From NCBI RefSeq assembly GCF_000504285.1, contig NZ_KI632511.1:6182154-6246153 (forward strand): DNA of 64,000 bases, written 5' to 3'. The notes below the pieces were generated by a model, which was given only the letters and a program-made list of their open reading frames with translations, was not told the DNA's origin and searched no databases. Source of the DNA: Actinospica robiniae DSM 44927 (GTDB lineage: Bacteria; Actinomycetota; Actinomycetes; Streptomycetales; Catenulisporaceae). A program made the translations under genes and the position numbers. How positions within the stretch are numbered: the stretch's first letter is position 1; each line of letters begins with the position of its first letter. Of this stretch, positions 15,056 to 37,083 are shown one piece after another.

Positions 15056-15841
15056 GTGGGTACCTTCCGCAACCCGGTGGGTCCGCTGCCTTCTTCTGTT
15101 TACTGGCGGCGGCGTCTCGTGGTGCTCGGAGTCCCGCTCTTCATCATCCTGTTGATCGCCTATGCCTGCAGCGGAACCTCCGGCAACCCGCAGAGCACGT
15201 CCGGCGCCATAGGGGCACAGTCCAGCGCGACCCCGAGCGGCGGCGCCGTGATCACCCCGGCCCCGGGCGAGACGCAGTCCGGCCCGCCCGAGGGTTCTTA
15301 TCCGGGCGGCGGCCCCGGCGGAGGCAATGGCGGGTCCAACGGTGCGGCCGGCGGCGCGACCGGAACCGCCGGCGCGACGGGCTCGGCCGCGGCCGGTTCG
15401 GTCGGCGGCGCCGCGGGTGGCACGGGCGGCGGCGGAGGCAGCGGCTGCGCACTGACGCTGACCCTCGCGCTGGACCGCACCTCGGCCTCGGGGCCGGTCA
15501 CCTACCCGGCGGGTACGTTCCCGACCTTCAAGATCACCGGCACCGACTCCGGCTCGGCCAACTGCACCGTCGACGTCTCCGGGCGCTCGCTCGTGATCAC
15601 GGTCGCGGCTCAGGGTTCGAGTACGCCGAAGTGGAGTTCGGCGACCTGTTCCGGCGCCGGCGATCTGCGCGTGCTCGGCCCGTCCGACTCGCAGACGTTC
15701 CCGGTGCAGTGGAAGCGCTGGGAGTCGCAGGGGCAGACGTGCCCGGTCTCGAAGCTGCCGACGGTCCCGCCGGGCAGTTACACGGTGAGCGTGTCGGTGG
15801 ACGGCGTCTCGGCCACGCCCGTCTCGTTCGTGCTCGCCTGA
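15056..15841 (+). CDS. Membrane-anchored, Gly/Ala-rich exported protein, unknown
   Basis: 261 residues from a GTG. An N-terminal hydrophobic helix (VVLGVPLFIILLIAYAC) ends in a Cys but lacks a proper lipobox, so it is probably a signal anchor. A disordered Gly/Ala/Thr linker (about 45-138) precedes a beta-sandwich-like domain (about 140-261: LTLALDRTSASGPVTYPAGT ... VSVSVDGVSATPVSF) with Cys residues that could form disulfides. Divergent from mutY. Similar anchored proteins occur beside disA/mutY in actinomycetes; function unknown. Confidence 0.75.
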   Translation: MGTFRNPVGPLPSSVYWRRRLVVLGVPLFIILLIAYACSGTSGNPQSTSGAIGAQSSATPSGGAVITPAPGETQSGPPEGSYPGGGPGGGNGGSNGAAGGATGTAGATGSAAAGSVGGAAGGTGGGGGSGCALTLTLALDRTSASGPVTYPAGTFPTFKITGTDSGSANCTVDVSGRSLVITVAAQGSSTPKWSSATCSGAGDLRVLGPSDSQTFPVQWKRWESQGQTCPVSKLPTVPPGSYTVSVSVDGVSATPVSFVLA

Positions 15842-17093: not shown

Positions 17094-18557
17094 CTACCGG
17101 CTGATCATCTGATTCCGCGGGCCGGAGTCCGCTGCGCGCCCCCTCGGCGCCCCGTCCGCCGGAGCGGTCAGGTCGTGCAGGGCCACGAGCGCGTCGGCGA
17201 TGTCGGAGACCTCGATCACCCGCATCCCCTCCGGGGCCTTGGGCGCCTCGCCGCCCGGCGCCGGCCGCGGCACCAGGCCGATGCGGAAGCCGAGCCGGGC
17301 CGCCTCGGACAGTCGGCGGCCGAGACCGGAGACCGGCCGCACCTCGCCGGCCAGGCCCAGCTCGCCGAACGCGGCCACCGTCGGCGGCAGCGGCGCGTCG
17401 ATCGCGGCCGTGGTCATGGCCAGTGCCACGGCCAAATCCGCCGCCGGATCCACCAGCCGCACCCCGCCCACGGTCGCGGCGAACACGTCGTTCTTGGCCA
17501 GCGGCACCCGGCCGCGGCGTTCCAGCACGGCCATCACCATCGAGACCCGCGAGCCGTCGAGGCCGGAATTGGCCCGGCGCGGCTGCGGCAGCGGCGAGGG
17601 CGCCACCAGCGCCTGCACCTCGCACACCAGCGGCCGGCGGCCCTCGAGCGTGACGGTGACGCAGGTGCCCGGCACCGCCTCGCTGCGCTGGGAGAGGAAG
17701 AGCCCTGACGGGTCGGGCAGGCCCTTGATGCCGGACTCGCGCATCTCGAAGCAGCCGATCTCGTCGGTCGGGCCGTAGCGGTTCTTGACCGCCCGCACGA
17801 TCCGCAGGGTGGAGTGGCGGTCGCCCTCGAACTGCAGCACCACGTCCACCAGGTGCTCGAGCACGCGCGGGCCGGCGATGTTGCCGTCCTTGGTGACGTG
17901 CCCGACCAGGATGGTGGCCAGGTCCCGCTCCTTGGCCACCCGGATCAGCGCGGCGCACACCTCGCGTACCTGGGTGATGCCGCCGGCCACGCCGTCCACC
18001 TCGGCCGAGGCGACCGTCTGGACCGAGTCCAGGATCAGCAGGCCCGGGTCGACCGTCTCGATCTGGCCGAGGACGGCGGCCAGATCCGTCTCCGCGGCCA
18101 GGTACAGCTCCTCGTGCAGCGCGCCGATCCGGTCCGCGCGCACCCGCACCTGGGCCGTCGACTCCTCGCCGGTGATCACGAGGGCCGGGCGGGCCGAGCC
18201 GGGCCGCCCGCGCGCGGCGTACGCGGCGGCCACCTCGAGCAGTAGCGTGGACTTGCCGACGCCGGGCTCCCCGGCCAGCAGCACCACCGCGCCCGGCACC
18301 AGGCCGCCGCCGAGCACCCGGTCGAGCTCGTCCACGCCGGTCGGCCGGGCCTTGGCCATGGTCGCGTCCACCTGCGCGATCGGACGCGCGGGGGCGCTGA
18401 CCGGGCCGGCCTTGACGGTGCGCGGCTTGGGCACGCCGAGCTCCTCCAAGGTGCCCCAGGCCTGGCACTCCGGGCAGCGGCCGAGCCATTTGACCGTGGT
18501 GGCCCCGCATTCCGCGCAGCGGTAGCCGGGACGGGCGGATTTGGTCGAGTTGGCCAT
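17094..18557 (-). CDS. radA: DNA repair protein RadA
   Basis: 487 residues from the ATG at 18557 ([17 protein letters not shown]); the frame is open further upstream but the zinc finger fits this start. Four-Cys zinc finger (CAECG ... CPECQ), Walker [10 protein letters not shown], the RadA-specific KNRYG motif and a C-terminal Lon-protease-like domain ([27 protein letters not shown]). It promotes branch migration in recombination. Upstream partner of disA. Confidence 0.95.
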
Positions 18558-18708
18558 GGCCGACACGGTAGCGGCAGCCGCCGACACGGCGCCGGACGGC
18601 CCGGCACGTGGCGGGGCGAGGCCGAATTTTTCCGGCATTTGCGGATCTTCGCGGCGAAGGGTCGTAACAGTTCGTACCGCTCAGTGGATTTCCAAACTCC
18701 CGATGGCC

Positions 18709-18714
18709 TAGCGT
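18709..18714 (+). promoter_or_regulatory. -10 element of a probable leaderless promoter
   Basis: TAGCGT within GGCCTAGCGTCC, 8 nt before the GTG at 18723. The same CCTAGCGTC string lies 7 nt before the GTG of the next paralogous gene at 20153. No clear -35 hexamer is seen. Confidence 0.5.
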
Positions 18715-18722
18715 CCTGTGCC

Positions 18723-19994
18723 GTGAGCGACCGGGATTTGGTAGCCGCCCTGCGGGCGGGGGACCGGCTTGCCGCCGGGCAGGTCTACGACATATACGGC
18801 ACGAGGCTATACGCGTACTGCCATGAGCTGCTCGCCGACCCGAAGCTGTCCGCGGACGCGCTTCGGGACACTTTCATCGTGGCGGTCAACCGGGTCCGCG
18901 GACTGGCCGACCCGGAGGAGTTCGGCGCCTGGCTCTACGCGCTCGCCCGCAACGAGTGCGTCCGGGTCGGGGTGAGCGACGACGCCCCGGCCGACGCCGC
19001 CGGCGCGGCCCGCGGCGACCGGCTGGCCCGGCTCGCGCTGGACTGCTACTCGATGCTCGAGCCGGAGAACCGCGAGCTGCTCGACCTGGCCTTCCGGCAC
19101 CGCCTGGTGGACGCCGACCTGGCGCTGGTGCTCGGCCAGAGCGAGGCGCAGATCTCCAGCCGGGTGACGCAGGCCCAGGGCGATCTCGAGACCGCGCTGC
19201 TGGTGGTGCTGGCCGCGCGCACCGGCGACCCGAAGTGCCCCGACGCCTCGGACTTCGGCCGCCGCTTCGACGAGATCGACGGCAAGGGCGTGACGCACTG
19301 GCTGCAGGCCGCGAGCCGCCACGTCGAGCGGTGCGCCATCTGCGGCGACGCGGTGCGCAACCGCCGTCCGCTGCGCCTGTTCGAGGAGCTGCCGCACTCG
19401 TTCATGCCGCCCGGCGTGCGCTCCCGGGTGCTCGAGGCGCTGCGCGACCCGGCCGGCTCGGCCTTCGCCGAGCAGATCGCCGATCGCGCCGGCCGCTTCG
19501 ACGAGGCCGGCTTCCCGACCGGCGGCAGCGCGAAGGTCTCGAACGGCCGCAAGTGGATCATGCCCGCGGTCATCGTGGGAGCGGTGGTCTGCGGTGTGGG
19601 CGTCTTCATGTGGATGACCCACGGAAGCGCTCCGGCCGCTACGGCGGACACGGTCACGACGACCAGCAGCGCGACGGCGGGTGTGCAGAGCACGGATGCC
19701 TCGGCGTCGGCGGGCGCGAGTGACAGCGCCAGCGCCAGTGCCAGCGCGTCTCTCTCGCCGTCCGCGAGCGCGTCCACCTCGGCGGCGGGGACCGGGAACC
19801 AGAACCAGAACCCGGGCACGCAGCAGAGCTCGCCTCCGCCGGTCAAGCAGACTTCGCCGAGCCAGAAACCGACCACTCCGAAGCCATCCCACTCTACGAG
19901 TACGCCTGCTGCGCCGCCGTCATCGAGCAGCGCTTCGGCTTCGGCGAGTGCTTCGCCGAGTACCTCAGGGAGCGCATCCGCGTCACCTCCGTGA
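18723..19994 (+). CDS. Sigma-like / zinc anti-sigma-like fusion with membrane helix and exported tail
   Basis: 423 residues. Residues 1-70 match sigma region 2 ([19 protein letters not shown] ... [15 protein letters not shown]) and about 100-165 resemble region 4 ([20 protein letters not shown]). An HVERCAIC zinc motif at 200-207 is of the HxxxCxxC kind found in ZAS anti-sigma factors. A membrane helix follows (about 278-297, [17 protein letters not shown]), then about 110 residues of Ser/Ala/Thr/Pro-rich tail, presumably outside the cell. Paralogue of the next gene. It may bind core polymerase, or it may be a sigma-derived regulator that no longer initiates; I cannot tell from sequence. Confidence 0.75.
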
Positions 19995-20027
19995 GTCGTA
20001 TTTGCCGAACATAGGGGAAAAGCCGGA

Positions 20028-20074
20028 GGTGACGCCTCCATCGGGTCTTTCACCCGAACTGATGAGGCGTCACC
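20028..20074 (+). terminator. Hairpin terminator after the first sigma-like gene
   Basis: GGTGACGCCTC (20028-20038) pairs with GAGGCGTCACC (20064-20074). An inner GGGT/ACCC pairing extends the stem-loop. It lies 34 bp after the stop codon. Confidence 0.65.
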
Positions 20075-20139
20075 GCGGCCCCGGTCACTCATGCGGGTGA
20101 TAGCCGGTTAATACGTACCCGTATGCACACGCCTCCGCC

Positions 20140-20145
20140 TAGCGT
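20140..20145 (+). promoter_or_regulatory. -10 element of a probable leaderless promoter
   Basis: TAGCGT 7 nt before the GTG at 20153, in the same CCTAGCGTC context as the promoter of the upstream paralogue. Confidence 0.5.
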
Positions 20146-20152
20146 CGGTCGG

Positions 20153-22630
20153 GTGAACGCTGACACTACTGGTGGGGGGCGTGCCCTCCGCGGCGGCGTG
20201 CTCGGCGGGACGGCGGGCGACGGGTGGGGGCGCGCCGCCGCCTACGACGCCTACGCCGACGGACTGCACACCTACGCGCTCTGGTACCTGCGCGACCACG
20301 ACGCCGCTGCCGACGCCCTCTACTGCGCCTTCGCCGCGGCGGACCGCAACCACACCACCCTCCAGCAGCCCGAGCAGATCCAGCCGTGGCTCTACGCGCT
20401 GCTGCGCCGGGAGTGCCGGCTGCGCGCCGGGGAGGGCGACGCGCCGACGCCGGTCTCCGGGCGGCTGCGGCCGAAGGCGGACGGACTCGGCGACTCGGGC
20501 GTGGGCGCTTCGCTGCTGCAGCTCGAGGGCAATCTGCGCCGGGCCGAGTTCCACTCCCTGGCCTGGTCCGAAGCCGAAGGGCTGGCGCCGGCGCACCGCG
20601 AGGTGCTCGAGCTGACCATCCGGCACGGGCTCGACAGCCGCGGGCTCGCGCTCGTCCTCGGCCTGCGCGAGGGGGCGGCCGGCCTGGCCTCCACCCGCGG
20701 GTTCGGGTTGCTGGCGGACGCCTGGCGGGAGCTCGAGCGGTCGCTGGCCGCGGCAGCCGTGGCCGGGTCCGGGCGGGACAACTGCGCCCAGCTCGCCGAG
20801 CTCACCTTCGGCTGGAGCGGCAAGCTCAACGCGACGCTGCGTGCCCCGCTGACCGAGCACGTGGACCGCTGCTCGCGCTGCCAGCACTACCTGCACACGG
20901 TCATCGGCACGCCGTCCGCGCCGACGATCCTGCCATTCGTCGCCGCACCGCGCGCGCTGCGGGATCTGCTGCTCGGCGAGCTCGCCGACGCGGACGCGGC
21001 GCAGACGGCGGGCGTGGATCTGATCGCGCTCGGCCGACGCTGCGGGTCGTTCGGGTCCGAGGGCTTCCCGGCCCGCGTAGACCTTTCGCAGAACTCCACG
21101 ACGGCCGCCGCGGGGACGGGCGGCGGGTCGGCGCGCCCGCCTCGACGGCGGCAGGCGTCGGCACGCCTGCACCGGACCCCGCGTGCGGGCGGTGCGGGCG
21201 TGCCGACCGGCGCCGCTCGTCCCGCCGCCGCGCCGGAGGCGGCCCGGAGCGAGCAGCAGGCCAAGCCGGAAGCCGCGCGCAGCGCCGCGACCGCGTCGAG
21301 CGGGCCGGCCGCCGCGAACTCCCCGAGCCCGACGAGTGCCGTCCGGCCGACGGCGCGCACCGAGCGCCCGGTCCTGCGGGTGCCTCCGCGCGTGCCCGAG
21401 GCGGAAGACCTCTTTCGTGCCCGCGGCAGCTGGGCCGAGCGCGTCCTGCCCCCGCAGATCGCCGCGGCAGCGGCGGCCGCGGAGGATTCGCTGTGGCGGC
21501 CCGAGCCGGCGGCCGAGTTCATCCAGACCCCGTCCGGGCGCTTCGCCACGCGCACGCCGCTGCCGCCGCGCCCGCCCCGGCCGCAGACCGCGTCGTCCGC
21601 GCCGGCCTCGTCCGCCTCGAGGCCCGCGCAACCCGTGCCCGGTGACGCCGCGTCCGCGGCCGAGGTGAGCCGGCTGCCGCGCTACGCGCGCGGCAACAGC
21701 CGGCCCGCCGGTGCGCGGGCGCGGCACAAGGCCAGGCCCATGCGCCAGGCCGTCGTCTCGGCCATGGCGCTCGGGGCGATCGGCGCCGTCGCGGCCACCG
21801 CCGCGGCGCTGCTCGGCAGCGGCGGGGACCCGCAGGCGAAGACCATCGCCCTCGAGAACACGCAGCCCAACGAGGTCGTCGGCGGCGCGCAGACCCCGGC
21901 GGGCCGGCAGCCGACCCAGGACCGGCTGTCGGTGACCGTCACCACGGCCGGCGGGGGCGCCGCGGCGCAAGCCACCGGGCTCGGCTCGCCGCTCGGCACG
22001 GGTTCCTCGGCCGCCGTGAGCTCGCCGACCGTCGCGGCCTCGGGCGGGTTCTTCGTCTCGGTGAACCAGCGCGACGGCGACCCGTATAGCGTGCAGATCC
22101 TGCTGCGCAACGCCGGGACCACGCCGCTGAAGTGGTCGGCCTCGCCGGACGTGTCCTGGCTGACGCTCAGTCAGCGCTCGGGCACGCTCGCGCCGGGAGC
22201 GAGCCTCGCCGTCACGGCCACGGCCACCTCGGCCGCGCCGAGCGGGCAGTGGGTCGCGCACATCACCTTCCAGCCCGGCGGAATCCTCGTCACGGTGCAC
22301 GGAGGGGTCGCGGCCCCGCCGTCGTCCGCAGCGTCGTCCGCAGCGGCGTCTGCATCCGCGCCCGCATCCGCGTCCGCATCGAGCACGCCGACGGTCGCCC
22401 CCAGCAGCAGCTCTCCGTCCTCCGCCCCCACGTCGCCGTCCTCCACTGCGAGCACGACACCGTCGACGCCCAGCGCGCCGCCGGCTTCGTCCACCACGGC
22501 GGCAGCCGGCGATTCCGCGACACCGAGTCAGACCGGCGGCGGTGCGACGGCGAGCGCATCGGCCTCGTCCACGAGGATCCGCAGGCCGGCGCCGTCGCGG
22601 ACGGCCTCACGTCACGCGGCCACCCGGTAG
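20153..22630 (+). CDS. Sigma-like / zinc anti-sigma-like fusion with membrane helix and BACON/Ig-like exported domain
   Basis: 825 residues from the GTG at 20153; an ATG at 20123 is in frame but the leaderless -10 favours the GTG. Degenerate sigma region 2 (YDAYADGLHTYALWYLRDHD ... QPWLYALLRRECR), a region-4-like part (LAPAHREVLELTIRHGLDS), then the zinc motif HVDRCSRC at 236-243. A long Pro/Ala/Arg-rich cytoplasmic linker leads to a membrane helix (about 533-556). Outside, a beta domain at about 630-718 (DPYSVQILLRNAGTTPLKW ... ITFQPGGILVTVHGG) resembles BACON or abnormal-spindle-type Ig domains. A Ser/Ala/Thr tail ends the protein. The 3' end overlaps the convergent gene by 19 bp. Confidence 0.75.
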   Translation: MNADTTGGGRALRGGVLGGTAGDGWGRAAAYDAYADGLHTYALWYLRDHDAAADALYCAFAAADRNHTTLQQPEQIQPWLYALLRRECRLRAGEGDAPTPVSGRLRPKADGLGDSGVGASLLQLEGNLRRAEFHSLAWSEAEGLAPAHREVLELTIRHGLDSRGLALVLGLREGAAGLASTRGFGLLADAWRELERSLAAAAVAGSGRDNCAQLAELTFGWSGKLNATLRAPLTEHVDRCSRCQHYLHTVIGTPSAPTILPFVAAPRALRDLLLGELADADAAQTAGVDLIALGRRCGSFGSEGFPARVDLSQNSTTAAAGTGGGSARPPRRRQASARLHRTPRAGGAGVPTGAARPAAAPEAARSEQQAKPEAARSAATASSGPAAANSPSPTSAVRPTARTERPVLRVPPRVPEAEDLFRARGSWAERVLPPQIAAAAAAAEDSLWRPEPAAEFIQTPSGRFATRTPLPPRPPRPQTASSAPASSASRPAQPVPGDAASAAEVSRLPRYARGNSRPAGARARHKARPMRQAVVSAMALGAIGAVAATAAALLGSGGDPQAKTIALENTQPNEVVGGAQTPAGRQPTQDRLSVTVTTAGGGAAAQATGLGSPLGTGSSAAVSSPTVAASGGFFVSVNQRDGDPYSVQILLRNAGTTPLKWSASPDVSWLTLSQRSGTLAPGASLAVTATATSAAPSGQWVAHITFQPGGILVTVHGGVAAPPSSAASSAAASASAPASASASSTPTVAPSSSSPSSAPTSPSSTASTTPSTPSAPPASSTTAAAGDSATPSQTGGGATASASASSTRIRRPAPSRTASRHAATR

Positions 22631-34521: not shown

Positions 34522-35730
34522 CTAGGGGGTGGAGCTCGCTCCGTCATCGCCTATGCCGAGGTCGATCGCCGGCAGGCCGAGCAGCCCGGGGACGGTGACT
34601 CCTATCGTCGGCAGCGGCAGCGGGACGTCGACTCCTATCGACGCGGCCGAACTCGGCGAGGTAGTGCCGGACGCGGAGCTGCCGGAGGGCTCGGGCCCGG
34701 CGGAACCGGACGGCCGCGTGCTGGGCGCTCCGCTCTTGCCCGCGCCCACCGACGAGGAGCCCTGGGTCCCGGTGCCGCCGCCCGGCCCGCCGTCCGCGCT
34801 GCCCGCGCTGCCCGGTCCCTGGTCGATGTGCGAGGACTGCGCCGCCTGCGCCGCCTCGGCCTGCTGCAGCTGCCGGTTGAGCTGGTCCATCAGGGCCACG
34901 ATCTGCGGAGGCTCCGACTGCAGGGACGGCGGCAGCCGCCAGCTCAGGTCGGCCACCCGCTGACGCTCGGTCAGCAGGAAGTCGGACAGCGCGTGCAGCG
35001 CCGTCTGATCGCCGGTCAGGCGCACCTGGGCCACCAGCATGTTGCCGCCCTGGGCGATCATCGTGCGCAGCTCGTCCAGTGTCTGGCGCAGGTAGGCCTG
35101 CGTGGGCGAGCCGGCCAGATCCACGTCCGGGCGCTGCAGCAGCGAGTCGATCTCGCTCAGCCGGATGTCGGCGAAGTGCAGGTAGTCGCGGCCCTGGTCG
35201 GTGGTCGAGCCGGAGAGCGAGAGCTGCAGGGACTCGAAGATCTTCTTGGCGTTGTAGAGCGGGTCGCCGGGCTCGGCGCCGGCCGAGGCGATCGCGATCC
35301 CGCCGACCGAGCCGGTGGCCACCGCCACCCCGACCCCGGCCGCGAGCAGCCTGCGCCGCCAGGCCGTGGACAGGGTGGCGAAGCTCGGGCGGGTGCGCGT
35401 CTCGCCGGAGCCGTGCCGGGCTCCGGAGCGTCCGCCGCGCCCGCGCTGCGCGGGCACCGCCGTGCTGCTCCGCCCGGCCTCGCCCTCGGCGTTCGGCCCG
35501 GCCACCTTGGGCGTGAGCGCCACCAGCTCCGCCCGCAGATTCGAGCGGAACTGCGCGGGCGCATGCGCCGGCAGCGCCCGGCCGGCCTGGCCGAGCCGGT
35601 CCGCCAGCGCCAGCATCAGCGTGCCCTCGCCCCGCTCGGCGTGCTGCCCGTGGCGGGTGCGTGCCGCCCGCCCGCCCGCCGGGTCGGCGAGCAAAGCCGC
35701 GAACTCCTCCGCCGCCTGTCGTTCGTTCAT
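34522..35730 (-). CDS. DUF5667-type membrane protein, probable anti-sigma factor of BldN (RsbN-like)
   Basis: 402 residues from the ATG at 35730. The cytoplasmic N-terminus (about 1-120) contains short helices (RQAAEEFAALLADP, PAQFRSNLRAELVAL) suited to sigma binding. One membrane helix (about 128-150) is followed by an external helical domain (about 152-290: PGDPLYNAKKIFESLQLSL ... DYLHFADIRLSEIDSLLQR) typical of DUF5667, then a Gly/Ser/Pro-rich tail. In Streptomyces the gene next to bldN encodes the membrane anti-sigma RsbN; position, topology and the BldN-like promoter upstream support the same role here. Confidence 0.8.
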   Translation of the reverse strand: MNERQAAEEFAALLADPAGGRAARTRHGQHAERGEGTLMLALADRLGQAGRALPAHAPAQFRSNLRAELVALTPKVAGPNAEGEAGRSSTAVPAQRGRGGRSGARHGSGETRTRPSFATLSTAWRRRLLAAGVGVAVATGSVGGIAIASAGAEPGDPLYNAKKIFESLQLSLSGSTTDQGRDYLHFADIRLSEIDSLLQRPDVDLAGSPTQAYLRQTLDELRTMIAQGGNMLVAQVRLTGDQTALHALSDFLLTERQRVADLSWRLPPSLQSEPPQIVALMDQLNRQLQQAEAAQAAQSSHIDQGPGSAGSADGGPGGGTGTQGSSSVGAGKSGAPSTRPSGSAGPEPSGSSASGTTSPSSAASIGVDVPLPLPTIGVTVPGLLGLPAIDLGIGDDGASSTP

Positions 35731-36046
35731 CGCGCCTGCCACCTCCTCCACTGCTCGTCGGTCCGGGGCGCCGGCCCCGCCCGGCCGTCACCGCGTTCGA
35801 CGCGTGCCGGGCGGCTTTGGTTGTGCCCGGCTCGCCCGAGAGCAGTCCCAGGGACGTCCTTTTCACTCGTTCGAGTGGATCTCGGACGCTCGGCCGGGGT
35901 GCGGGCGCGCATCGTCGTGAGCAACGACGGGAGCGGGTCGCGAGTTACGGAGGCCACCCCCGCACGGGCGTGCCGTACCAGTGCGTCCGGCCCGCTCGGC
36001 GGCGTCGGCCGCGGGAGACGGCCCGGTATCCGGCCGGGTCTGCCGC
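35731..36046. other. Intergenic region between bldN and the RsbN-like gene
   Basis: 316 bp, no gene. It holds the BldN-type promoter candidate on the minus strand (35921-35949). From there the leader to the RsbN-like start would be about 185 nt. Confidence 0.5.
35921..35949 (-). promoter_or_regulatory. Candidate BldN-dependent promoter of the anti-sigma gene
   Basis: On the minus strand CGTAAC (35949-35944), 17-bp spacer, CGTTGC (35926-35921). The BldN consensus known from Streptomyces has CGTAAC at -35 and CGTTG at -10 with a similar spacer. It reads toward the RsbN-like gene. Confidence 0.55.
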
Positions 36047-36781
36047 TCACCGCAGATCCGCCGGGAGCAACCGGGCCAGGGTGCGGATCGCCCGGTACTG
36101 CAGGGTCTTGATCGCGCCGTCGTTCTTGCCCATGATCTGCGCCGTCTCGGCCACCGACAGGCCGTGCAGGAAGCGCAGCGTGACGCATTCCTGCTGCTGG
36201 CTGTTGAGCTGTTTGACCGCGTCCAGCAGGGCCCGGTTGGAGAGGTAGGCCAGCACCGAGTCCTCCGGGCTCGGCTCGGTCTGGTCCGAGTCGAGCATCT
36301 CGCCGGTGGGCACCTCCAGCCGGTGCCGGGAGGACTTGAAGTGATCGGCCACCAGGTTGCGCGCGATGGTCACCAGCCACGCCCCGAAGTCGCGGCCCTG
36401 CCAGGTGAAGGTGGAGATGCGTCGCAGGGCCCGCAGAAAGGTCTCGCTGGTCAGGTCCTCGGCCAGCGCCTTGTTGGTCACCCGGTAGTAGACGTAGCGG
36501 TAGACCGTGTCCACGTACGCGTCGTAGAGCATCCCGAACGCCTCGCCGTCGCCCGACTGCGCGCGCTCGACCAGGGCCAGCATCCGGGCCGACTCGGCGT
36601 CCGGGCGCGGCGGCTCCGGCGGCGTGGTGGCGCCGCCGGGCGCGACTGGCCGCGCGGAGCTGACGGCCGGGCCCGCGCCGGCGGGGCGGGGCGGGGTGGG
36701 GACCGCTCCGGCCGTCATCGCGAGCACTGCCGCACGCAGGCCGCTCAGGCCGGTGCGATCGGCGCTGACGTCTCGGTGCAC
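36047..36781 (-). CDS. bldN: Developmental ECF sigma factor BldN
   Basis: 244 residues from a GTG at 36781. An N-terminal extension of about 65 residues begins MHRDVSADRTGLSGLRAAVL and is followed by Pro/Ala-rich sequence; Streptomyces BldN is made as a pro-sigma with a similar processed extension. Region 2: AFGMLYDAYVDTVYRYVYYR and AEDLTSETFLRALRR, FTWQGRDFGAWLVTIARN; region 4: QECVTLRFLHGLSVAETAQI and GAIKTLQYRAIRTLARLLP. BldN directs aerial hyphae genes (bldM, chaplins, rodlins). It neighbours its likely anti-sigma gene and the rex-hem block, as in Streptomyces. Confidence 0.9.
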   Translation of the reverse strand: MHRDVSADRTGLSGLRAAVLAMTAGAVPTPPRPAGAGPAVSSARPVAPGGATTPPEPPRPDAESARMLALVERAQSGDGEAFGMLYDAYVDTVYRYVYYRVTNKALAEDLTSETFLRALRRISTFTWQGRDFGAWLVTIARNLVADHFKSSRHRLEVPTGEMLDSDQTEPSPEDSVLAYLSNRALLDAVKQLNSQQQECVTLRFLHGLSVAETAQIMGKNDGAIKTLQYRAIRTLARLLPADLR

Positions 36782-37083
36782 AAGGCTCCAGGTGCTCGGG
36801 TGCGCCGTGGTTCGGGCACGGCATCCGTTCAGCCGCGCGGTTCCGGTGCGCACTGCCCTCGTGTCCGCTCCGCCGCGCCGCGTGGGCTGCGGGCGACGGG
36901 CGGGTCGTTCCGCTCGTGGTCTCGCGTCGTTCTTCACGTGGACCGCCGCCCGTCGCGACGGCCCGATCACCCATAGTAGGCGGCTCGGACCCCGCTGTGT
37001 GCGGCTTTGACGACTCTGCTTGACGAGCCGTCAGGACGAGACACGAGGATACCCCTTAGTGACGACGTCGCTACGGCACGTCG
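36782..37083. other. bldN promoter and leader region
   Basis: 302 bp between bldN and the HAD gene, both on the minus strand. A TACTAT -10-like hexamer (minus strand, 36978-36973) would give a leader of about 185 nt; no good -35 is visible. The stretch at 37030-37080 is relatively AT-rich. bldN is known to be a BldD target in Streptomyces, but I could not place a convincing BldD site. Confidence 0.4.

Follow-up and report, generated by a model that had tools for sequence, protein, structure and literature searches.

This study concerns a 64,000-nucleotide stretch of the genome of Actinospica robiniae DSM 44927 (contig NZ_KI632511.1, positions 6,182,154 to 6,246,153 of the forward strand; hereafter the window), and within it two tandem genes, here named A and B, that diverge from radA and disA. 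Both encode, on a single chain, an N-terminal part resembling regions 2 and 4 of an extracytoplasmic function (ECF) sigma factor, and C-terminally a zinc part of the zinc-binding anti-sigma (ZAS) type, a membrane helix and an exported extension (Table 1). A first-pass annotation of the same DNA had suggested that a sigma domain and its zinc regulator share one chain here and that A and B are paralogues; the paralogy stands (35% identity, E 1.1e-9), and the fusion is upheld in both genes by the profiles, the fold of A, the zinc ligands and the match of B to the anti-sigma factor RsiW.

Domain architecture and predicted structure

Regions 2 and 4 were recognised by profile and fold in A and by profile in B, only region 2 of A passing a Pfam cut-off (Sigma70_r2, 1.3e-5; 25.3 bits where 24 are required). 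The profile built from 15 A-type rows (14 A proteins and the A-like gene of G015, a genome of another family in the same order) matched, among solved structures, the ECF factor BldN (6dxo) over profile positions 5-159 at E 1.5e-10, across both regions. In the predicted model of A (pLDDT, the predicted local distance difference test, 63.5; six input sequences, as for B) region 2 aligned with sigmaE (4lup; Z 11.7, root-mean-square deviation 2.5, 89 residues) and region 4 with region 4 of SigL (3hug; Z 11.4, root-mean-square deviation 2.0, 76 residues), values to be read with the caveat that Z below about 13 can reflect a common helical-bundle arrangement. All 50 rows listed in the fold comparison of A were sigma factors; the Foldseek E-values for this model were all above 0.001. 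The model of B was poor (pLDDT 49.6), its best fold matches nonetheless being sigma factors. Given the weak Foldseek values and the weak B model, we base the fold assignment on the profiles together with the aligned domains; the sigma fold of the N-terminal part, singled out beforehand as the point to be examined, was found in regions 2 and 4 of the A model.

For B, no Pfam sigma match rose above the cut-off (Sigma70_r2, E 0.2). A profile of 11 rows (nine B proteins and two non-B relatives, G015 B and G004x) matched the ECF factor SigL (6dv9, E 1.1e-6) and, over the zinc part, RsiW (5wuq_C, E 0.0074). The zinc motifs read C-x27-H-x3-C-x2-C in A and C-x24-H-x3-C-x2-C in B, and the Pfam scan gave no zf-HC2 match in either protein. 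Both predicted models are poor over the zinc part, and the helical bundle typical of ZAS factors did not stand out in them. The membrane helix and the exported Ser/Ala/Thr/Pro-rich tail that had been proposed for both agree with hydropathy and composition (the tail of A has 30% Ser, 21% Ala, 13% Thr and 13% Pro). No domain was recognised by the Pfam scan in the exported part of A; in that of B the anticipated BACON/Ig-like domain was identified as BACON_2 (8.8e-7, above cut-off). The BACON family takes its name from suspected carbohydrate binding.

Table 1. Coordinates of genes, domains and promoter elements at the locus (window positions)
Feature	Position	Strand	Description or basis
disA, after radA	15931 to ~17022		NCBIfam DisA above cut-off
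radA, divergent neighbour marking the conserved locus	17094-18638	-	NCBIfam RadA above cut-off
-10 element TAGCGT of A	18709-18714	+	8 nt before the GTG start
Gene A	18723-19994	+	423 aa; parts given in the five rows below
A sigma region 2, residues 5-84	18735-18974	+	Pfam Sigma70_r2; fold match 4lup
A sigma region 4, residues 104-166	19032-19220	+	Fold match 3hug; recognition helix lacking its usual basic residues
A ZAS-like zinc domain, residues 167-265	19221-19517	+	Ligands C172, H200, C204, C207
A membrane helix, residues ~278-298	19554-19616	+	Hydropathy maximum 2.27
A exported low-complexity Ser/Ala/Thr/Pro tail	19617-19991	+	Composition
-10 element TAGCGT of B	20140-20145	+	7 nt before GTG 20153
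Gene B	20153-22630	+	825 aa; start moved from ATG 20123 to GTG 20153
B sigma region 2, strongly degenerate	20234-20425	+	Profile match to SigL 6dv9; weak Pfam
B sigma region 4, degenerate, short insertion	20513-20758	+	Profile, helix charge and basic residues, omega
B ZAS-like zinc domain	20759-21067	+	Ligand codons 20783, 20858, 20870, 20879; RsiW match
B long cytoplasmic Ala/Pro-rich linker	21068-21742	+	Sequence; omega
B membrane helix, residues ~533-554	21749-21814	+	Hydropathy maximum 1.93
B exported BACON/Ig-like domain	22085-22228	+	Pfam BACON_2
B remaining exported part and Ser/Ala/Thr/Pro-rich tail	22229-22627	+	Sequence

Decay of the sigma part

In the proteins linked to radA, the recognition helix with which ECF sigma factors read the -35 promoter element is on average acidic rather than basic. 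At positions 150 and 152 of A, within the region 4 recognition helix, both basic residues are lost in 13/14 A proteins, 14/14 B proteins and all 27 proteins of family f2 (Streptomycetaceae-like, which is, as is 'Catenulispora-like', an inferred label), that is, in 54 of the 55 radA-linked sequences. Both are missing from none of 18 chosen intact relatives (nine of f6, three of f21, two of f28, and f20, f39, G037 and G004x), none of the 12 f19b proteins, not from the one f31 protein, and from none of nine outgroup ECF52like fusions (a label assigned by layout and domains). The mean net charge of the helix follows the same division: -5.2 in A (n = 14), -3.7 in B (14) and -2.9 in f2 (27), as against +1.9 in f6 (9), +1.0 in f21 (3), +0.5 in f28 (2), +0.5 in f19a (15), +1.1 in f19b (12), +1.9 in the ECF52like fusions (9) and +4.5 in generic ECF factors (2); G015 B stands at -2 and G015 A at +6. 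Five generic ECF helices of the Actinospica genome itself carried +2 to +5, one of them being also a row of the set (8/13 rows of this control were unused, seven for a wrong frame and one as already in the set).

Domain models tell a similar story. At E<=0.01, Sigma70_r2 and Sigma70_r4_2 were matched by 40/46 and 36/46 relatives elsewhere, and among the radA-linked proteins by 1/27 and 9/27 of f2, 14/15 and 0/15 of the A rows, and 2/11 and 2/11 of the B set. A profile of the 46 relatives matched SigW at 6e-21; that of the 27 f2 proteins matched no sigma factor structure at E<=0.1, its sole sigma-type match being a PhyR protein (9by5, E 0.028, weak). The acidic residue of region 2.2 (A45) is kept in 14/14 A proteins, is Asp in 4/14 B proteins and is mostly changed in the Streptomycetaceae-like ones; the Gln beside it is changed too in B and f2, but also in several relatives. 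The roles given here to this residue and to the -35 helix positions follow the general picture for sigma factors. Retention (the mean share of positions conserved in intact relatives, counted by similar residues) in regions 2/4 was 0.89/0.52 for A, 0.65/0.70 for B and 0.57/0.58 for the Streptomycetaceae-like proteins. The degeneracy that the first-pass annotation had seen in the sigma part of B is thus borne out, but it is not confined to B: the idea of a single decayed paralogue was rejected, region 4 of A having also decayed (helix charge, lost basic residues, Sigma70_r4_2 in 0/15).

Selection and zinc ligands

Omega (the ratio of non-synonymous to synonymous substitution rates) was estimated for A and B in eight chosen close pairs. 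By this measure purifying selection acts on the sigma-like parts of B: omega was 0-0.14 in region 2, 0.02-0.23 in region 4 (seven pairs; 0 in the eighth) and 0-0.52 in the zinc part, regions 2 and 4 lying mostly below the linker (0.39-0.71 in seven pairs, the remaining one giving 0.09 with a protein truncated by a contig end) and below the ectodomain and tail (0.29-0.92 in the six pairs measured). In A, region 2 ranged over 0-0.12 and the membrane helix plus tail over 0.48-0.66 in the eight pairs; region 4 gave 0-0.33 in the sister genus. Across f2 (301/351 pairs with usable synonymous divergence) omega was above that of B, with medians of 0.30 for region 2, 0.22 for region 4, 0.45 for the zinc part, 0.11 for the membrane helix, 0.94 for the stalk and 0.50 for BACON.

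All four zinc ligands are complete in 14/14 B proteins, in 27/27 f2 proteins and in the rows of every other fused group. A zinc motif arising by chance was considered and set aside, the ligands being conserved in every fused group except the A proteins of one genus.

Start codons and leaderless -10 elements

A TANNNT element lies 7-8 nt ahead of the start in 14/14 A and 14/14 B genes of the family (window included), a conserved spacing that points to leaderless mRNAs for both. Of the shared leaderless -10 string noted in the first pass, the TANNNT core and its spacing thus hold in all 28 genes, while the wider string CCTAGCGTC is not conserved. The start of B had originally been placed at ATG 20123; the L058 orthologue has no in-frame ATG at the equivalent position, and this, with the conserved -10 spacing, makes GTG 20153 the better choice, so that translation most likely begins there.

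Genomic setting and distribution

The A/B pair is divergent from radA-disA in 14/14 family genomes examined (the window and loci L058-L070). A, B, radA and disA occur together in 13/13 of L058-L070, a contig end truncating B in two of them; when 30 relatives were searched in addition to the window's genome, A was present in each of the 13 other family genomes. In G015, A-like and B-like genes adjoin radA; its A-like gene (L071:7063-7899) encodes 279 aa and stops before any membrane helix, with an Arg-rich region 4 helix of charge +6.

Class-wide, 111/296 genomes gave a match at E<=1e-15, the weak end of which includes ordinary ECF factors. In 27/27 f2 genomes examined, a B-type gene adjoins radA on the opposite strand at a distance of -67 to 968 bases (25/27 within 500, the other two at 785 and 968); because these genomes were chosen as those giving a class-wide match, they are no test of absence. 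A separate f2 sample, scored for presence irrespective of locus, gave a match in 118/121 genomes and 17/17 genera. The five f2 stretches read hold radA, disA and ppx together with the B-type gene, and BACON_2 was found by Pfam in 26/27 Streptomycetaceae-like members. Elsewhere the association loosens: the G037 copy adjoins radA on the same strand, one f19 copy lies 5-57 kb from it (in the eight genomes with both on one contig), and no radA was seen in the stretches read around the copies of f6, f21, f28, f20, f31 and f39.

Some further copies were encountered. G077 and G304 (L118, L119) carry tandem fused sigma/ZAS pairs far from radA, a second and separate tandem case, the L118 pair having sigma domains above the Pfam cut-offs. 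G004 (L077) has a third, sigma-intact copy, ~40% identical to A and B, on a contig other than that of its radA locus. Mobile origins were discarded: the close-relative scan gave no match in viral contigs, and the matches labelled 'plasmid' were to a Nonomuraea record as large as a chromosome and to a replicon of Thermomicrobium. Between disA and mutY, the window also encodes (15056-15841, +) a Gly/Ser/Thr-rich, probably exported protein that occupies the same place in many related stretches, f2 included, and has no NCBIfam match at E<=1e-20.

Phylogeny

In a tree of 59/114 rows, B, f2 and G015 B came out as one clade with support (100/100), next to which G037 may stand (82/43). A, on a long branch, grouped with rows of f19 (94/95). 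The radA-linked proteins stood apart from the ECF52like fusions (100/100), 5/8 of which, among those scanned, carry AbfB, CAP or glycosyl-hydrolase domains. Simple membership in ECF52 gained no support here, on a tree set holding no named ECF48/52/53 reference. The loss of the basic residues requires 7 changes on the tree, and so arose, or was reversed, more than once. Other fused ECF factors (L079 and L080 of the Actinospica genome itself; L074 and L076) were likewise seen to bear AbfB, glycosyl-hydrolase or CAP domains C-terminally.

Interpretation and alternatives

Our reading starts from what sequence comparison makes apparent: the layout, the zinc ligands, the place beside radA-disA, a -35 helix stripped of its basic face, and the purifying selection. 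On these grounds A and B may be described, tentatively, as radA-linked actinobacterial sigma/anti-sigma fusions in which the sigma half is a pseudo-sigma, with its ECF fold kept and under selection and its promoter reading gone; that the loss of the basic helix abolishes such reading is inferred. The first-pass annotation had left the choice between proteolytic release and a catalytically dead decoy. The lost -35 features, taken with the retained purifying selection, favour the dead sigma; proteolytic release is the model already published for related fusions. As the output would be lost and yet the fold, the zinc part, the membrane helix and the selection all remain, a protein-binding role (a partner switch, or anti-sigma action in trans) seems most likely, with the alphaproteobacterial PhyR as precedent.

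Several observations weigh against this reading. Both basic residues are also absent from 7/15 f19a proteins, and at radA itself G015 A and G015 B keep one each and G037 both, so that the loss does not simply follow the radA place; as one of the two generic ECF rows lacks both as well, columns 150 and 152 alone are not diagnostic. NCBIfam sigma models are still matched, if weakly, by individual f2 proteins (L115 at 2.4e-7, L113 at 8.6e-4). The retention of the outgroup fusions in regions 2/4 (0.53/0.56) is about that of the radA-linked proteins and, since those fusions are presumably working, the case for decay comes down to the -35 helix and to the scores against the sigma models. In the window's genus A has a freer region 4 (omega ~0.55), and the keeping of A45 in 14/14 A proteins suggests that A, less decayed than B, may still touch RNA polymerase. 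Moreover, Asp replaces the first Cys of HxxxCxxC in 10/14 A proteins, leaving the motif complete in 4/14; the altered proteins belong to the sister genus (within L060-L070), the A of the window keeps the Cys and so does B in 14/14, so that zinc binding may have been lost there in one paralogue only. Lastly, it is not proven that the radA-linked proteins form a clade. One clade for the 22 radA-linked rows (A, B, f2, G015) was not rejected (approximately unbiased test, p 0.352), and with A placed among f19 rows in the tree, a local duplication is no more than a possible origin of the A/B pair.

How a pseudo-sigma of this kind might act can be sketched as follows. The sigma-like and ZAS parts would lie on the cytoplasmic side and, in the resting state, be bound to each other, and the exported tail or BACON part would set how tightly they pair; a change outside (a ligand, a wall polymer, or cleavage near the membrane) would open the pair, leaving the ZAS part free to capture, in trans, a true ECF sigma factor or else the sigma-like part free to capture an anti-sigma factor. 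The outcome would be a PhyR-like partner switch tied to the membrane. Stated in full, the proposal of a membrane-tied sigma mimicry, near-universal in the Streptomycetaceae-like and Catenulispora/Actinospica-like groups, whose partner switch frees or captures a true ECF factor on an outside signal, is doubtful, though possible. If true, Actinobacteria would have reached the PhyR principle on their own, starting from working fused sigma factors. One candidate circuit is that of BldN, encoded 14 kb away and the best structural match of the A profile. The bldN orthologue of the window (36047-36970, -) is a 307-aa open reading frame (TIGR02952 above cut-off; 6dxo at E 2e-71). Just downstream of it, the open reading frame at 34522-35751 (-) has no match in NCBIfam or among solved structures; it occupies what we take to be the expected position of RsbN.

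Among the alternatives, the best surviving is that A and B are working fused sigma factors of the ECF48/52/53 type, silenced by their ZAS part until an outside signal leads to proteolysis and expression of a regulon, perhaps with relaxed reading of the -35 element. The layout is that of SCO4117 and of ECF48/52/53, the sigma fold is present in A (its region 2 still above the Pfam cut-off), relatives elsewhere keep the sigma Pfam domains (40/46 and 36/46), single Streptomycetaceae-like proteins weakly match sigma models, and overall retention, region 4 of A excepted, is not below that of the outgroup fusions. An acidic -35 helix with both basic residues lost in 54/55 radA-linked proteins is hard to square with promoter reading, and the region 2 model now mostly fails to match B and the Streptomycetaceae-like proteins, which leaves us to regard this explanation as rather unlikely for the radA-linked proteins. 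For the intact relatives, the published idea of silencing and proteolysis would fit.

It is improbable, in our judgement, that these are now envelope proteins, with a cytoplasmic part unrelated to transcription and with BACON and tail acting outside. The presence of BACON_2 in 26/27 Streptomycetaceae-like members, where the sigma part is weak, speaks for this; the omega of B regions 2 and 4, well under that of the exported part, and the kept zinc ligands speak against it. A shade less probable still is a decoy or tether for RNA polymerase, in which region 2 would bind the core enzyme with no DNA binding, and polymerase would be held at the membrane or other sigma factors be competed with: the gap in A between the retention of region 2 (0.89) and region 4 (0.52) is what such a protein might show, and the region 2.2 acidic residue, mostly changed in B (Asp in 4/14) and in the Streptomycetaceae-like proteins, is what it should have kept. 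That A and B are decaying relics of fused sigma factors is very improbable despite the lost sigma features, the zinc cysteine missing from A in one genus and the omega of ~0.55 for A region 4 in the window's genus, because purifying selection acts on the sigma-like domains of B, and because the gene (matched in 118/121 genomes) and the leaderless -10 elements (28/28 A and B genes) persist.

Sigma/anti-sigma fusions are known and have been little tested, and the pseudo-sigma proteins described here, with their relatives, offer a natural separation-of-function series, running from intact relatives through the half-way A to the more degenerate B and Streptomycetaceae-like proteins. A counterpart should be open to testing in a model organism: SCO3351 of Streptomyces coelicolor is RadA (PMC3897704) and sco3348 an exopolyphosphatase candidate (PMC4433243), which makes SCO3349 or SCO3350 the probable counterpart. 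Neither of these two names was found in the main texts searched. As far as that literature reaches, the radA-linked pseudo-sigma lineage appears to be new, no description of it having been found there; the principal ECF classification paper and the actinobacterial survey of 2015 lay outside the search and may mention it.

Comparison with known systems

The ZAS anti-sigma factors (RsiW, RslA, RsrA) carry the signature HxxxCxxC plus an upstream Cys, and are normally separate proteins without a sigma domain of their own. A and B have this zinc signature in common with them, and the B profile matches RsiW. BldN, the best solved-structure match of the A profile, differs from A in that no fused zinc domain or membrane helix is seen in the BldN gene of the window. 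IutY (ECF243) of Pseudomonas putida belongs to another phylum. It is alike in joining a sigma factor and a membrane anti-sigma factor in one chain, and is activated by proteolysis (PMC8999054).

The general layout of A and B is already known from the fused ECF48, ECF52 and ECF53 proteins of Actinobacteria (ECF52 being exemplified by SCO4117 of Streptomyces coelicolor), which, according to PMC5826349 and PMC8999054, likewise combine on one chain ECF domains, a zinc finger, one or two transmembrane helices and an extension outside the cell, and for which the model proposed there is silencing of the sigma domain by the ZAS part and its release by proteolysis. The radA-linked lineage differs from them in a sigma part without the features for -35 reading, and in the outside domain, which is a carbohydrate-binding one in ECF52, BACON (itself perhaps a carbohydrate binder) in B and none recognised in A.

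The closest parallel to the sigma part itself is PhyR of Alphaproteobacteria, which, according to PMC8103513, folds correctly as an ECF factor would while its contacts to promoter and polymerase have degenerated, and which titrates an anti-sigma factor. The likeness lies in a degenerate sigma-like domain and in weak sequence matches, both to solved PhyR proteins and to PhyR models. As a response regulator PhyR acts by titrating NepR and has a C-terminal receiver domain, whereas the Pfam scans gave no such domain in A, B or the 27 Streptomycetaceae-like members; in A and B the sigma-like part is instead fused to a ZAS domain and a membrane helix.

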